DNA of 64,000 bases from Hyperoplus lanceolatus (Eukaryota; Chordata; Actinopteri; Uranoscopiformes; Ammodytidae). Positions 1 to 61,118 of this stretch are shown in pieces; position 1 is the first letter of the stretch; every line of letters begins with the position of its first letter. The position numbers and the translations under genes were made by a program. Location of the stretch: positions 20,767,001-20,831,000 of the forward strand of contig CM049410.1 in the NCBI GenBank assembly GCA_026929865.2, given 5' to 3'. A model generated the notes under the pieces. That model did no database searches. It had not been told where the DNA came from and saw nothing but the letters and a program-made list of their open reading frames with translations.

Positions 1-1080
1 GAGGCATCCTTCTAAGCAAGCACTAGTATGTATATGGTGTATAGTGTTTGAATAGTGATTTATGCATAAGCATATCATTACTCTGCACGGCTACTCCAGT
101 TTCATCCAAACTAGTATTAGTGTATTCTCTTGAGGCTTATAACATGAACTCTTTCATGGAAAAGCCTCTCTGCTCTAAGCTGATGAGAGCAGTACTGCAT
201 ATGATACTTTATTGATGTTTGTGTCATAGTCTCTCCTTATCCCATTCCCCTATCATAGAGCAGGGTCAGTTGCAGAATAGCATGCCTAAATGATTTTAAG
301 GGAATTGAAAGACTCGTTCAAGGACACATCCTTGTCCTGGTGTAATGTCCCTGAGCACAGCACTCTCTGTAGCCTATATCTCCACCTCTACTGACCGCCC
401 ATACACTACAGCTTATATGATTAAGCTTCCCAGATACAGTGTTGGTAAACCATTTTAGTGCTGATTTGATTTCCTGATGTAACAGTGAAGAGAGAGAAAA
501 AACAAATAGATTTACTCTGATTGTTTTAATGCATATCCATATCATATCCATGCAGCAGATAATATTTCACGGCAGCTGTGAAGAGGATCTAATCATGTTG
601 ACCAGTAATGGCTCTGTCCAATCAAAACAAGGAGTGACTTTACTATTTATAGTCCTGTGCACTTGCTAAATCTAATGGCTTGGGGATTAAAAGAAAAAAT
701 ACGTCTTGGAAAAAAGTCAATTAATAAAAGAAAGGCAGACAGCTGGCTTTACCCTAGCTGTGATTTCAGAGGAAATCTCTTCTAATGGTTGCCATCATCG
801 CGTCCCCTTCAGGGCACGCCCACTCACTGTCTTGTCCAATACCGACAGAAATCATTTCCCTGATTGAACAAAGACAGTCGACACATTTGGGCAACGTACC
901 CTTTTTCTCCCCACAACCCTGAAGTGTGAGCAGCACGTGCGCTGTGAGCCAGATGTGCTGGACAATGACAATCATACAATTAGGGCAGTTTTGGTACAGG
1001 CGTATTTAGTGGATAGTGTGTCACAGCTGGAGTTGAAACCGAAACACTAAAAAATGCATCTTCCGGTCAGACTGGCATGT
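1..1080. other. unassigned flank, no gene seen
   Basis: I see no exon with convincing splice sites, no RNA gene and no transposon with recognisable ends. Open frames here are short and compositionally random. Confidence 0.5.
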
Positions 1081-1960
1081 CACCTATACCGTTATGATGC
1101 ATCGGCACGAGAGCTGTTCGGTTAGCGGCACGTTCACATTTAAATGGAGCGGTGCTGCGTTCACAGGTGTGCGGCTTCACTGGGATATTTAGAACAGTTC
1201 AACGCGGGGTTTTAGTAAAAAGTCCATGGTTTAAGCCCGCACGGGCCGGTTTCATGAAATGTCCCTTAAAATTTCTGTAAACTGTATCCGTTTATTCCTC
1301 TAAAGTGAGCCTCTCATCACAATCATGTCTTGGCCTCTTCCAGGACGAACAGAACAGCAGCGGGGATTGGGGGAGGGGAGACAGAAACAAACTCCGTACC
1401 CACACACACACACACACACACACACAGAGCCAGGCCTCTCAGTAGCCGACCACCGACAAGTGCACAACTTTGTCCCACTATTCACCTAATATATGTGCTA
1501 TCGCCGCTAACAGCCGCTATAAACTACGCGAACAACATGACGACCGCAAACATCCCCCCTTCTCTCGTCTGAAGACACGCAGGGAATCCCACAACAAATT
1601 TCGGAATATATTTTACAAGCAGTAAAAGCGATGGCACATATCTCCCGACTATACCGCAATCCCAATCTGAGCTGTGGGAGAGAGAGATAGAGAGAGAGAG
1701 AAAAGTGACATATACTTAACCGGTGGAAATCGTGTTGCTGCCTTCGAGTGCATCGGGTGTTTGGACCGGCACGGGTGGCCGCGGACACTGTCATAGTTGC
1801 GATATTGCAAGAGTTTAAAAATAACAAAGAAAACAGTCCGCTACTCTCCACCTCTCCATGGCTGTCTCTCACTGTCTGTGCGGAGCGGACGGAGCCGAGG
1901 AGGCTACACGGCAGAGGATGCACAGCGCCTCGCCCGTTCACTACACAAACTACCAGTGTT
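1081..1960. promoter_or_regulatory. CpG-rich patch, possible promoter or first exon
   Basis: This stretch is richer in G+C and CpG than its AT-rich surroundings. It contains a CA microsatellite (1401-1426) and a GA-rich run (about 1679-1701). That composition is typical of a promoter or 5' exon, but I cannot identify a transcript or a recognisable coding segment. Short open frames on both strands are not supported by family resemblance. It could also be an old GC-rich repeat. Confidence 0.25.
1401..1426. repeat. (CA)n microsatellite
   Basis: Thirteen uninterrupted CA units lie in the CpG-rich patch. Confidence 0.95.
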
Positions 1961-4900
1961 TAGATTGGGTGCATGTAGTAGCTTACATTGATTTTTTTTT
2001 CTACCTCAAGTATTCAAATCAGTATTCCCTTTTTGGTTTACAATCCAAACACAAAAACAAATAATGATTTTTGAACGATTTAAATTAGATTATTGAACAT
2101 GTTGGATCTACAGCCCACAACACAATAGTGCATAGGCCTATACTCCAGAAATGTAGTATGCCTTTCAAAAAAGCTTGGTGGACAAAACTAATGCATAGTT
2201 TTGTCCTGATTTTCAATTGTCCTATTTGCTTGATCTATACTCCACGTTTGTGGCCCTTTCCAGACCAAACATAATGAGACATAGCCTATGTAAAAGGAGC
2301 ATATAGGCTACTTAAATGTAATAGCGATTGGCTACTCAAGATACCATACTCAAGATGGAAGATGTTTATACAACAGGTTGGACAACAACACCCTTTGGAG
2401 ACAGTGAGTCTGCAAGTTTCCATAATGCCAAAGAATGCACAGGATGACTTCACTCATTAGTTTATATATGATGGAGCACTCTGGCGGCCTTTGTCATGTT
2501 TTAACAGCTGACAAGGTGTTATAATTACCGGTGGCAACTCCTTCATACGATGAGTTTATGAGTTATTATATATTTTACAAGAACACATAATGGAACACAA
2601 TTGAATTACCAACCTCTTTATGCATAATGACTTATGAATCAGGCTACCAACATTTCAAGGCTTTTAACAGTTTACCAACAGTGAGCTATACATTTCTTGT
2701 TTCAAAGATAATCATATTGCAGAGACCTTTACATTTCTCTAAATATTTAGTCGTAGCCCCTCTAGCACAAACACTTGGGTTGGGATGCATTATGTCTTAA
2801 TGATTCATCTCAGAGCTCCTGAAGCTTTCCAACAGCCTTGGAGATATATTGGTTCTCGTCTTGGTGTGTGTATGAATAAAACCAAAACATCTATGGTGAA
2901 AACCAATCTAAGTGGTGACACACCTCTTCTGTGTAAGCACTGCTGAGTTACAAATAGCTATCAACATGCCACTTTGCACCGTTTGACAAAGGTGCTCTAA
3001 AAATAAAGATTATTATTATATTATTAATATTATTATTATTATTTAAATCTTTAGTTTGACTGTTCTCGCTGGGAGTGTGTCACGCAGCAGGGAAAACGAG
3101 CTACAATTAATACCATTAAACATTGTAACGACTACTTCTGATGCTTTGGGACCTGCTACAATGTTTCAACTCAGAGCATTTTAAGCAGCGCTGTTAGAAC
3201 TTGTCATTACTTATGACTTTACAGCACAAAGGCTAAAACATGCAACAAAGGCAGCACTAAAGGCTGTTATCAGCTTAGCAATCATTATACAGTCACACGG
3301 TTAACTGAGTCTAAGATGAAAGGCAGATAGAACACTATGAAAAGTAAATGATTATGTTATTAGATCAAACCATGTGGGAGCATGTGGAAAAGAACAGGAA
3401 TATACAGTATATATACAGTATATTCCACACTTTGTTTCATCACGTCACCTGAATTGCCTTTAAAAGTGTGCAGTGCACACATAGCTTACAATATGTATGG
3501 CCGTGAAACAAAACATGAAAAACACCTGACGCACTTCAGCTTCCTCGAGGTAAAATTGATTTTTGGGCAGCAACAATTTAAGAATCCTGATACTCAAATA
3601 CTCAGTTTTTTGGCAAAGCATCAATTCTTCTCTCTGACCATCTATGTTTTTTTTATTATTGTTGTTATTACCAAAAGCATTTCAATATTCTCAACAAAGT
3701 CAGATTTCTTCCTTTGGAAAATCTATCAGAACCTCAGAATGAAGATTATCACATCATACAATCCATGACTTCCAGCCACGACACCACTTTCTTTACGTCC
3801 CCGTTGCTTTCTGGACCGTGTTCCATTATAATCCCACATACAAGTCACCACGGAATATACTTTTGAAAGTTTGACATTCAAGTAAGGGTTGAGGATGCAG
3901 ATGACAATTTCTTTTTCTCCCATGGCAACTCAATCTGTTGTTTTTGTACACAGATACAATCCCTTCTCAGTCAGATTCCCAGTCCACATTGCATGCAGAT
4001 CAACACATCTTACCTTGAGTTTGTTTCTCTTCCTCACACATCCTCCAGCAGTACGTCCATTTTGTGAGGATCCCATTGCACTGTTATTTAACACAGTGGG
4101 CTGTAGCAACGGTAACATCCCTCCCTTCACTTTGACACAAGAAGGCCTGGCCAAAGCAGCATGACGCCAAAACAGTTTGTCTTTGCCATCCATTAGTTTC
4201 TGTAGAAGAAGGAATATGTTACGTCTTTATACAAGGTGAAGACCAGCAATACACTTTATGGTTTTATTTTACAATGTTTAGGAAAATTAACTTGATATTC
4301 TTCAATAGAAATTAATTTCAAAAGGTTTCAAATAGTACAGTACAAGCTCCCATTTTATACCATAAACTGAAATGGTGCCCTCTACTGAAACTCTTATCCC
4401 AACAGCCATTTTGTCAATGAAATTATTTATTGGATAGAAAATGTTTAATTTCCTCCATTCTTTTTTTGCAACAGCATGCTTTTGGAAAGGACATATACTG
4501 TACGGTGTACTGATGGAGACAAATAAACTGCTTTAAGTTTAATATCCTGTAAGACCATAGATAGTAAATAATATGGATGTAGCATCCGGGCTGACCTCAG
4601 TTATTCACACGGCATCCAATAATCCTGGTTTGTGCGCGTCGCCATTTTGTGAGGGGGAGGGAGATAGCTGACGTATACCTCCGAGGCAAAGTGAGGGACA
4701 ACGGGCGGAGAGCTGTCACTCAAGAGATCGCGCCAATACATTTTAACCTCCAAAAGAATACAAACTAGCGTGGTCCAAAAAAATTCACCCCCCTCAGTGT
4801 TGTCATGGAGATATGACCTAAACATACTGACTAAAATGGTTTTGTGGACCAGGCTGTAAATAGGTTTAATAAGACTTTGAAAACGGCCTGTCTAACAAGT

Positions 4901-29988: not shown

Positions 29989-32900
29989 TCAGTAAATATT
30001 ACACATTGGATGCTCGTAACCACAGAGAAAATCCGGCCACATGGTGTATTTCCGGATGAAAGGTGCTCTTCTCAAACACTTGCCGGCGTTTCTGTCACAC
30101 TTGCACAGCAGCTTTTCACATTTATCCTCCAAATCATCTGCAAAAAGAAGAACACAAATGTGTCCTTTGAGTGACAAGTTGAAAAGAGGATTGGAACTTT
30201 AAAAATGCTTGGTAACACTTTACAATAAGGTACACAAAATTGTAGTAGCTACTACAACCTACTACATAGTTTTTTTTTTGCGCTACCTATGTGATAGGTA
30301 GCACAAAAAAAAACCCTATGTGTTACCTACTACATAGTTTTTTTTTTTTGCGCTACCTATGTGTTAGGTAGCACAAAAAAAAACCCTATGTGTTACCTAC
30401 TACATAGTTTTTTTTTTGCGCTACCTATGTGTTAGGTAGCACAAAAAAAAAAACCCCTATGTGTTAGGTAGCACATAGGGTTTTTTTTTATGTGTATAGC
30501 AAAAAAAAAAACCCTATGTGTTACCTACTACATAGTTTTTTGGCTACCTATGTGTTAGGTAGCACAAAAAAAAACCCTATGTTTACCTACTACATAGTTT
30601 GTTTTTTGCGCTACCTATGTGTTAGGTAGCACAAAAAAAAAACCCTATGTGTTACCTACTACATAGTTTTTTTTTTGCGCTACCTATGTGTTAGGTAGCA
30701 CAAAAAAAAACCCTATGTGTTACCTACTACATAGTTTTTTTTTTGCGCTACCTATGTGTTAGGTAGCACAAAAAAAAACCCTATGTGTTACCTACTACAT
30801 AGTTTTTTTTGTGCTACCTAACACATAGGTAGCGCAAAAAAAAAACTATATAGTAGGTAACACATAGGGTTTTTTTGTGCTACCTAACACATAGGTAGCG
30901 CAAAAAAAAACTATATTAGGTAACACATAGGTTTTTTTTGTGCTACCTAACACATAGGTAAAAAAAAAAACTATGTAGTAGGTAACACATTTTTTTTTGT
31001 GCTACCTAACACATAGGTAGCAAAAAAAAACTATATAGTAGGTAACACATTGGGTTTTTTTTGTGCTACCTAACAGAAAAAAATATGTAGTAGGTAACAC
31101 ATAGGTTTTTTTTGTGCTACCTAACACATAGGTAGCAAAAAAAAAACTATGTAGTAGGTAACACATAGGGTTTTTTTTTTGTGCTAACTAACACATAGGT
31201 AGAAAAAAAAAAAATATGTAGTAGGTAACACATAGGTTTTTTTTGTGCTACCTAACACATAGGTAGCGCAAAAAAAAAAACTATGTAGTAGGTAACACAT
31301 AGGGTTTTTTTTTTGTGCTAACTAACACATAGGTAGCGCAAAAAAAAAAAACTATGTAGTAGGTAACACATAGGGGTTTTTTTTTGTGCTACCTTTAGGT
31401 AGCGCAAAAAAAAAACTATGTAGTAGGTAACACATAAGTTTTTTTTTTGTGCTACCTAACACATAGGTAGCGCAAAAAAAAAAAACTATGTAGTAGGTAA
31501 CACATAGGGTTTTTTTTTTGTGCTAACTAACACATAGGTAGCGCAAAAAAAAAAAACTATGTAGTAGGTAACACATAGGGTTTTTTTTTTGTGCTACCTA
31601 ACACATAGGTAGCACAAAAAAAAAACCCTATGTGCTACCTAACACATAGGTTTTTTTTTTGTGCTACCTAACACATAGGTATCAAAAAAAAAAAATATGT
31701 AGTAGGTATGTAGTAGCTACTACAATTTTGTGTACCTTATTGTAAAGTGTTACCAAATGCTTTGGTGTTGGAGTGGATTTTCGTCTCGGTTGTTGGTGCC
31801 TCATACAAGTCCAGCTTTTAGTTAGTAAAAAATAACCTGAAGTGGAAATTCTTCATATCTGAAACTATATGTAATTGTAGATATTGTGAATCAATTTATC
31901 ATTGATTTATCTAAAAGTATCATCAACAAGCCACTATGTTTGGTACTTAAAGGTGCTGTAAGCGGAATGGTCCTTTTAGCTAACTTCCTGTCAGTTACTG
32001 CAGTTAGCAGTCCCCTCGCTCGTCCCTACGTCACCACATTAATGCACTGCGGTCTTCAAGTAGCGAGTCATCTAGCATAATCTCAGATCCATAAGTGTGA
32101 TAAAACATGATAAAAACCATCAAAACAGACATTGGGAAGGATTTTACCTGCTCCGCCATTTTAGGTGAATAAACATTCACCCATCTGTTGCTCTGCGGGT
32201 ACACCGGCAGAGAGACGGGTGCCGGTTTGTAGCGTTCTTTCGAACAATTTAATTTGCCGACTACATGCAGAGCGGGTGACAGAGATCGGAGGTATGAAAC
32301 GCGCACACTATATAAGGGATTACTGTATGAATATGGAGCGATTTAATACTTGCATTAACCTAAATATATCCCTCACTTCACCTTTAAATGTGTAAGCTGT
32401 ATTAAACTTGTGGCTATTTACATTTCCACTTCTTTATGGAGGCTTAAAATACTACTTCACCTATGTTGTAAACAAGCTGGCTTTATCTTCCAATCAGCTG
32501 TGCATATACTGTTTTCACAAACTGCATGGATATTTGTAGATTACACACACAGCCTGATCTGTGTTTCTCACTCAGGTTTACCCATCAAGCACCATAATCA
32601 TCAGATTAATGTATGCACTTAAGAAAAAAAAATATACAGAGCAAAATATGTTCAAAATAGCAAAATATTATCCACACGTAAACATTAATAATGTATTACC
32701 ACACTCTGCTTTCTTGTCCTCGCACTTCCACTTATACTGGGCTGTTTTGGTTGAGCAGCCGAGACGTTCTGCATCTCCATAACAGCAATCATGTCTGTGG
32801 CAGCACCTACACACAGAAAGATTGACAACAGGGTAAATGTTTTTAGTTTTTTTAGTTTGAAGGCTGAACTACTAGACAAGACATGGGGCGAGGAGGCAGT

Positions 32901-38477: not shown

Positions 38478-38598
<121 letters not shown>

Positions 38599-60309: not shown

Positions 60310-60850
60310 TTAATGTTTCTGCTTTAGGCATAACTTTAATTGTCATTCTAATATCAATTTAATTAATGTTTTGATTAAACAGTGGCATTGCGGTGGTGGA
60401 ATCCATTAAAACTAACTTCATTTTTCATTTGTAATACTCCACACAGTAATGCTATATCATTTATGATCTGGACATGCAGTTCTATTTCATCCTTACTGAC
60501 CGCCAGAGGCGGTGCTTTAAGCACTGGATTTATCCGTCTCGCGCATGCGCAGTTCGAGTACCAATATCAACAAAGTCACCTGTGACCCTTGTGACACCAG
60601 AAGGGCTATATAGCCCGGTGTCTACAGAGGATCTGTTCCTTTTTCTTCTTGCATGAAGACGCAGACGTACCGCGTGCGATAAGTTTTCGCATTTGGAAAA
60701 GGATAAACAACGGTGTGCAGCCTCGGGACTAAGGTCAGAGCAACGGGTAAGGAACCCGTCCTCTAGGGGCTGTCTTAGCCGTGCAGCACTAAGTGCTTTT
60801 GCCCCACTATTGTGGCGCTAATTGATACCTTGCCCAGCAGTGTTACCGCT

Positions 60851-61118
60851 CCCGGTAACACTGCTGGGCAATTCTTTTTGGTTACTTACTGGTGAAGACT
60901 GCGCTTTCGCGTCCTCTCCCGGTAACACTGCTGTGCAATTCCTTTTTGTCACTTACTGGTGAAGACTGCGCTTTCGCGTCCTCTCCCGGTAACACTGCTG
61001 TGCAATTCCTTTTTGTCACTTACTGGTGAAGACTGCGCTTTCGCGTCCTCTTCCGGTAACACTGTTTTGTGTTTTTTGGATAAGTAGTTTACTGGTGAAG
61101 GCAGTGTTTTCGCTCCCT
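60851..61118. repeat. 67-bp tandem repeats
   Basis: Units begin at 60851, 60918, 60985 and 61052, each spaced 67 bp and starting CCGGTAACACTG. The first three are nearly identical; the fourth is degenerate. They lie between promoter and gag of the DIRS-like element. Confidence 0.9.

Follow-up and report, generated by a model that had tools for sequence, protein, structure and literature searches.

An intronic palindrome of double-hairpin units and its family of probable foldback transposons in Hyperoplus lanceolatus

The window, by which we mean the whole 64,000-nucleotide stretch analysed here, contains minus-strand coding frames with YGCYCGLGGQGW near 33.9 kb, CCHRHDCCY near 32.8 kb and CKCDRNAGKC near 30.1 kb. 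A 41-amino-acid piece of the 33.9-kb frame has its best match in group X secretory phospholipase A2 (E 2.4e-13), in agreement with an earlier note on this DNA that had placed the element described below in an intron of pla2g10. Because of the positions of these frames, the element (30211-31754, ~1.5 kb) is placed between the last two exons seen, in an intron of the pla2g10-like gene. The predicted acceptor TTTTTGCAG, found by eye at an exon that is predicted and not annotated, has its AG at 30138-30139. The locus comprises the following features:

30138-30210, minus strand: host intron, 73 nt, from the element to the predicted exon start at 30137 (by eye and from the exon frame)
30203-30210, unstranded: left target duplication AAATGCTT, 8 bp, with an exact twin at 31755-31762
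30211-30256, plus strand: left terminal inverted repeat (TIR), 46 bp, containing the palindrome TGTAGTAGCTACTACA; perfect match to the right TIR
30257-30802, plus strand: left array, built of double-hairpin units of ~68 bp; 15 modules scored as left-oriented
30803-30810, unstranded: T8 run, the point at which the unit orientation flips
30811-30835, minus strand: H1 hairpin GTGCTACCTAACACATAGGTAGCGC, with ACACA as the apex loop of the predicted central fold
30836-31708, minus strand: right array of opposite-facing units, 26 right-oriented modules scored including the one at 30811-30835
31709-31754, minus strand: right TIR, 46 bp, perfect partner of the left
31755-31762, unstranded: right target duplication AAATGCTT, 8 bp, same as the left

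As the earlier note had seen, the element is enclosed by an 8-bp duplication, AAATGCTT on both sides, and by long inverted ends, the TIR being perfect over 46 bp. The TIR starts with GGTAACAC, its first bases being GGTAAC, and a 21-mer of it (up to 3 mismatches) is matched in the window only at the two ends of the element, with 0 matches expected in shuffled sequences. Between the TIRs lie only double-hairpin units with one flip, and the description as almost entirely a hairpin-repeat palindrome therefore holds. Each unit of ~68 bp reads T-run, H1 GCGCTACCTATGTGTTAGGTAGCAC, A-run, H2 CCCTATGTGTTACCTACTACATAG; at times a third module, CCCTATGTGTTAGGTAGCACATAGGG, stands in for H2. The tandem array had been recognised correctly beforehand, but not its period of ~66 bp, which is corrected here to about 68 bp: TRF reports period 68 for the left array (30257-30911) and 71, also 134 and 205, for the right array (31077-31708). 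When the element is split at A/T runs of at least 5, T and A alternate in 43/43 successive runs, which bears out the claim of two stem-loops per unit between A and T runs, and the lengths of these runs do vary from unit to unit, from 6 to 12 nt. The orientation switches a single time, between the end of an H2 at 30802 and the beginning of the next H1 at 30811, matching the flip formerly put at about 30802-30812. Since the halves are unequal (15 left- and 26 right-oriented modules, 2 unscored), the dyad of the window element is off-centre.

The motif CTACCT occurs at 24.6 per kb within the element and at 0.30 per kb elsewhere in the window. For the central 178 nt, the predicted DNA fold reaches -86.2 kcal/mol compared with -18.2 +/- 3.0 in 200 shuffles; the RNA fold of 851 nt of the minus strand, which is the strand of the host gene, reaches -519.6 compared with -196.0 (20 shuffles). 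The window also contains another 67-bp tandem repeat at 60849-61064 (3.2 copies, 96% matches), the consensus of which is different from that of the element, and a GATA microsatellite of 30 copies at 38478-38598.

The genome searched comprises 806.7 Mb in 527 contigs. A search with the left half of the element gave 322 matches, 40 of 680 first-look candidates being scored, and a 31-mer of the TIR (up to 2 mismatches) detected 782 + 736 = 1518 ends, with 0 for the reversed-pattern control. One exact 26-mer had 0 matches in viral contigs. Copies were fetched by array similarity (39) and from the first 100 listed exact TIR places on C1-C4 (27), together with one further copy, L075. Sixty of these 100 places form 30 facing pairs, all of which were fetched (L058 incomplete, 4 from the array-chosen fetch), and 3 of the 40 unpaired places were fetched as well (in L038 and L056). 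Of the pairs, 23 belong to the window's class and 7 to a simpler one, L075 being counted with the window's class despite its insert. Both ends are present in 38/40 array-chosen places including the window, L040 and L042 being without a right end. In L040 (C210:12069-14592), the 2.5-kb array keeps one orientation throughout and has only one TIR, the fetched stretch containing no partner for it.

An exact target duplication of 8 bp flanks 53/64 two-ended elements. In the other 11, one base is different in 6, two in 1 and three or more in 4; no recognisable duplication is seen in 4/64, namely L015, L037, L051 and L047 (3 mismatches). The targets show the bias nAnnnnTn, with A in 28 and T in 15 at position 2 and T in 29 and A in 11 at position 7 (n=53). 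In the TIR-based sample of the window's class (n=24: the 23 pairs and L038) lengths range from 246 to 2740 bp with a median of 1280; array-chosen copies measure 782 to 4578 bp, the upper value belonging to a copy with a 1.1-kb insert; copies read without large inserts span 0.25 to about 3.7 kb. Extended end patterns assign 369 ends to the window's class (up to 3 mismatches; 289 perfect over 68 bp) and 166 to the simple class (up to 3 mismatches; 62 perfect over 71 bp), while some 980/1518 TIR ends (about two thirds) fit neither pattern, more diverged ends being missed at the 3-mismatch limit. Only 3 exact TIRs were found that diverge directly after base 31. A recent spread is implied by the 1518 TIR ends and the 289/369 perfect ends of the window's class. 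Within its family the window copy is unremarkable and not a one-off oddity.

Among 57 copies of the window's class, exactly one orientation switch is found in 51, none in 1 and more in 5. In L015, L035 and L059 each surplus switch comes from one call of the third module, which is nearly symmetric; in L013 a short piece is inverted, and in L041 inner blocks are repeated. In 37/38 array-chosen copies the first switch is left-to-right, the remaining copy having no switch. As the orientation of the array is fixed relative to its own TIR in the copies read, the single flip represents the dyad of a long inverted repeat. Its position is variable, with left-oriented shares from 15% to 100% in array-chosen copies with at most one switch, and these positions are consistent with a single dyad that is inherited while each arm grows and shrinks on its own. 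An apparent trade-off between arm lengths in the array-chosen copies (rho -0.53) was rejected as a selection effect, the TIR-based sample giving rho 0.11 (p 0.64, n=22). The rule that the flip always falls at H1 was dropped too, since aB and bA switches are the two possible outcomes of a chain that alternates H1 and H2. At L039:3009-3075, two truncated TIR ends stand face to face inside one element, which suggests a fusion of two copies.

Turnover of the arms was followed by pairwise comparison of 52 elements in both orientations, with A/T runs set to a fixed length (2652 comparisons). In 68 of the 100 best pairs there are 15 mismatches or fewer, with substitutions averaging 0.71%, and the same 68 pairs have a mean of 3.75 gaps of >20 bp each. 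Altogether 151/255 gaps are no more than 5 bp away from a whole number of units (65 bp each in shortened form) compared with 43 expected if uniform, a count that is descriptive and no measure of significance because pairs share members and are not independent. The remaining 104/255 are off unit multiples, 23 of them near half-units and the rest elsewhere. The expectation that such a structure should be unstable, yet persists, is not borne out in this form: the unit number differs between near-identical copies. Whole arrays can also be copied faithfully, as L030 and L068 agree with 2 mismatches in 1578 identities and no unit difference; 36/46 of their run lengths differ, through mutation or sequencing error.

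The rank of a variant H2 is fixed when counted from the TIR (148.7 vs a permutation maximum of 28.8; 90 arms, 45 elements, 500 permutations), whereas no order is seen when it is counted from the flip (15.2 vs 23.4; 90 arms, 45 elements). For H2 ranks 1, 3 and 5 from the TIR its frequency is 32%, 64% and 30%, and for ranks 2, 4 and 6 it is 6-9%. As this rank is kept, the outer ~0.5 kb acts like a long, conserved TIR, and unit turnover would occur more on the dyad side. Of two common end types, one has its outermost variant at the first H2 and the other at the third; 19 of 45 copies have one end of each type, 9 both ends of the third, 3 both of the first, and 14 other combinations. Over the outer 330 bp, the two arms of one element have a mean similarity of 0.916 (31 elements; 7 odd ones of 38 left out), and arms of different elements 0.907-0.917. 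Because arms within an element are no more similar than arms between elements, the inverted arms look inherited and not formed on site. Homogenisation of arms within an element was also considered, and none was seen, same-element arms being no closer than others.

The simple class has the same TIR and comprises L053, L057, L066, L073, L052, L061 and L058. On most ends its TIR continues with CATAGATATGTGTTACC or nearly so (in L061 at the right end only, in L058 with changes), and its arms consist of ~27-bp monomers, mostly with T-runs on the left and A-runs on the right. L053 is the cleanest copy, with 4 T_T modules, 1 T_A centre and 4 A_A modules. L066 (13, 1 and 1 modules, with a truncated centre) is not clean, and in L073 ~600 bp of other sequence replaces the centre. 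T_A and A_T modules make up 2296/2318 in the window's class. The centre GTGCTACCTATGTGTTAGGTAGCAC of L053 and L057 is an exact common module of the window's class (224/2310) and is one base off its commonest module (491 occurrences). From this identity it follows that the unit T-H1-A-H2 corresponds to one T monomer joined head to head with one A monomer. In L057, a 164-bp block containing a centre is present in 3.2 tandem copies with 90% matches, an apparent intermediate step from the simple to the double class. Judged from the divergence of the ends and this one intermediate, without a tree, the simple class is taken as ancestral.

Long TIRs with tandem subrepeats, a fixed 8-bp target duplication and a variable subrepeat number with conserved ends are features of foldback elements, and all were observed here. 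Very probably the window element inserted fairly recently and belongs to a family of foldback DNA transposons that are non-autonomous and duplicate 8 bp of their target. Assembly is difficult across palindromes and A/T runs, and the run-length differences between L030 and L068, which have 2 substitutions, may partly be sequencing error; still, it is highly improbable that the flip or the array is an artefact of assembly, as 57 copies share the layout in different flanks and with mostly exact duplications. For the layout, the doubt raised in the earlier note about the inverted half is thereby answered, the other copies having their own target duplications. A satellite array mimicking a transposon would explain tandem units of ~68 bp in variable number, but not near-identical TIRs at both ends with 8-bp duplications. 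A local inverted duplication at each site is at odds with the arm similarities given above, those within an element being no higher than those between elements, and we give either of these origins hardly any weight. The best reading of the family is a second-order foldback, i.e. a 'foldback of foldbacks', which is a known kind of element in an unusually clear variant.

Merlin, P, KDZ/Zisupton and Mutator-like elements make duplications of about 8 bp, and the TIRs of hAT elements have a CAG/TAG-type terminus. The 'hAT-type' label of the earlier note had the 8-bp duplication as its sole support and is not retained. That the family belongs specifically to the hAT superfamily appears rather doubtful: its TIR starts with GGTAAC, unlike the CAG-type end, while the 8-bp duplications of 53/64 copies speak in favour. 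So do the Atlantic cod MITEs assigned to hAT, with ~600-bp TIRs of 167-169-bp tandem repeats (PMC12368964, available part), and Hermes, a hAT that uses repeated subterminal sites according to the excerpt at hand (PMC10368747). However, the bias nAnnnnTn is the reverse of the nTnnnnAn given for Hermes in the accessible text of PMC2803484. A search for the hAT dimerisation domain (150 scored matches of 722 candidates) placed 29 matches on C1-C3 and the first 13.5 Mb of C4, all at least 21 kb from the 100 TIR ends compared (of 1518). For another superfamily with ~8-bp duplications (Merlin, P, KDZ/Zisupton or Mutator-like) we see close to an even chance. The duplication length fits, and end and target bias are unlike Hermes-type hAT; on the other side, 3/18 KDZ and 3/11 IS1595/Merlin matches lie in the stretch of the 100 listed TIR ends, all of them >300 kb away (by eye). 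These distances are a weak test of which transposase moves the family.

No autonomous partner is found among the longer two-ended candidates read (L052, L058, L061 and L075), and in a Pfam scan of nine of their reading frames only a Tc1/Tc3-like fragment in L061 matched. In L058, which was read in part, 4 of 6 listed frames were scanned and had no Pfam match. L061, a simple-class copy, was rejected as partner: its insert at about 640-1745 is a fragment of a Tc1/Tc3-like transposase (PF01498; weak DDE_3), a family that is not known to make 8-bp duplications. L052 was rejected as well, its 4150-bp insert being of another kind and without a Pfam match in its two frames >80 aa. This insert (L052:439-4588), nested in a simple-class copy, has the ends CAGAGGTGG...CCCCTG (CAGAGG...CCCCTG) and its own 8-bp duplication TACATAGG, so this genome does contain elements whose ends are of the ordinary hAT-like kind. 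The 3.4-kb repetitive insert of L075 (roughly 580-3980), the longest frame of which is without a Pfam match, was likewise discarded; in this window-class copy there are minisatellite-like frames with PQAPASSSK and FQRGTAFYA repeats. The same 1120-bp insert, with GGGGAAGGTGGGGTGATTTG inverted ends and flanked by TA, is found in L041:4688-5807 and L042:3030-4149 at the identical point of an H2 module, either as co-transposed cargo or through a shared target preference.

The FB elements of Drosophila and the TU elements of sea urchin are foldbacks with long inverted arms of short, simple tandem repeats, and resemble the simple class more closely than the window's class. Galileo, Tetris and the cod MITEs are known precedents for foldback elements whose long TIRs contain tandem subrepeats. 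By host, the closest known system are gadMor-hAT-1784 and -8043 of Atlantic cod, which are hAT by their authors' annotation and, in the part of the paper available, resemble the window family as non-autonomous fish elements with tandem-repeat TIRs (~600 bp in 1784) and little internal sequence (PMC12368964). The unit of gadMor-hAT-1784 has 167-169 bp compared with 68 bp here, a comparison made by description and not by sequence (same excerpt of PMC12368964). Tetris of Drosophila virilis, as far as the accessible portion of its description goes, is likewise a foldback, non-autonomous without a partner found, with 8-10-bp duplications, TIR tandem repeats that share a stretch with the TIR end, and a variable unit number; it differs in its 220-bp units, a separate inner domain and three structurally complete copies, and that portion describes no double hairpin for its units (PMC4079207). 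Galileo, of the P superfamily, also has long TIRs with internal tandem repeats, to which binding of the THAP domain has been shown. It differs in its known transposase, mapped THAP-binding sites and TIRs >1 kb, and the available text mentions no alternating hairpins (PMC3688188, in part). New in the present family are the unit, a head-to-head pair forming two hairpins, and a visible route to it. TIR and unit strings occur in none of the PMC full texts searched, although the family may be catalogued in Repbase or Dfam, and among the foldback papers listed no title points to such a fish element besides that of cod.

Read from the copies, the likely course of events would begin with the central hairpin of a simpler foldback, in which ~27-bp T-run monomers meet A-run monomers, and its tandem amplification would have given the 68-bp unit. 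Units would then probably have been gained and lost by slippage or unequal exchange, and a transposase encoded elsewhere is likely to move the elements. More tentatively, and by analogy to Galileo, the repeated CTACCTA/TACCTACTACATAG motif, which is also the inner end of the TIR, may multiply putative subterminal transposase-binding sites. As a wider proposal, which we rate somewhat short of an even chance, a simple foldback with T-run arm, hairpin and A-run arm may have amplified its own centre in tandem, the copied centres becoming inverted arms in their turn, and this palindrome of palindromes may then have out-spread its parent. If this is true, the hairpin itself, both as a hotspot of replication slippage and as a dense array of transposase-binding sites, would drive growth as well as success of the element, and the amplification of the centre could in principle recur.

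Origin and growth of foldback arms are hard to trace where intact copies are few, as in Tetris with three (PMC4079207, available part). Here, many copies, two structural classes and an apparent intermediate occur in one genome, and the order of events and the unit of gain and loss become readable from sequence. The same genome also lets the sequence show whether more repeats accompany more copies. Finally, the copies offer a natural series of long palindromes, 0.25 to about 3.7 kb in length and including at least one in an intron, for studies on replication stability, splicing and double-stranded RNA.
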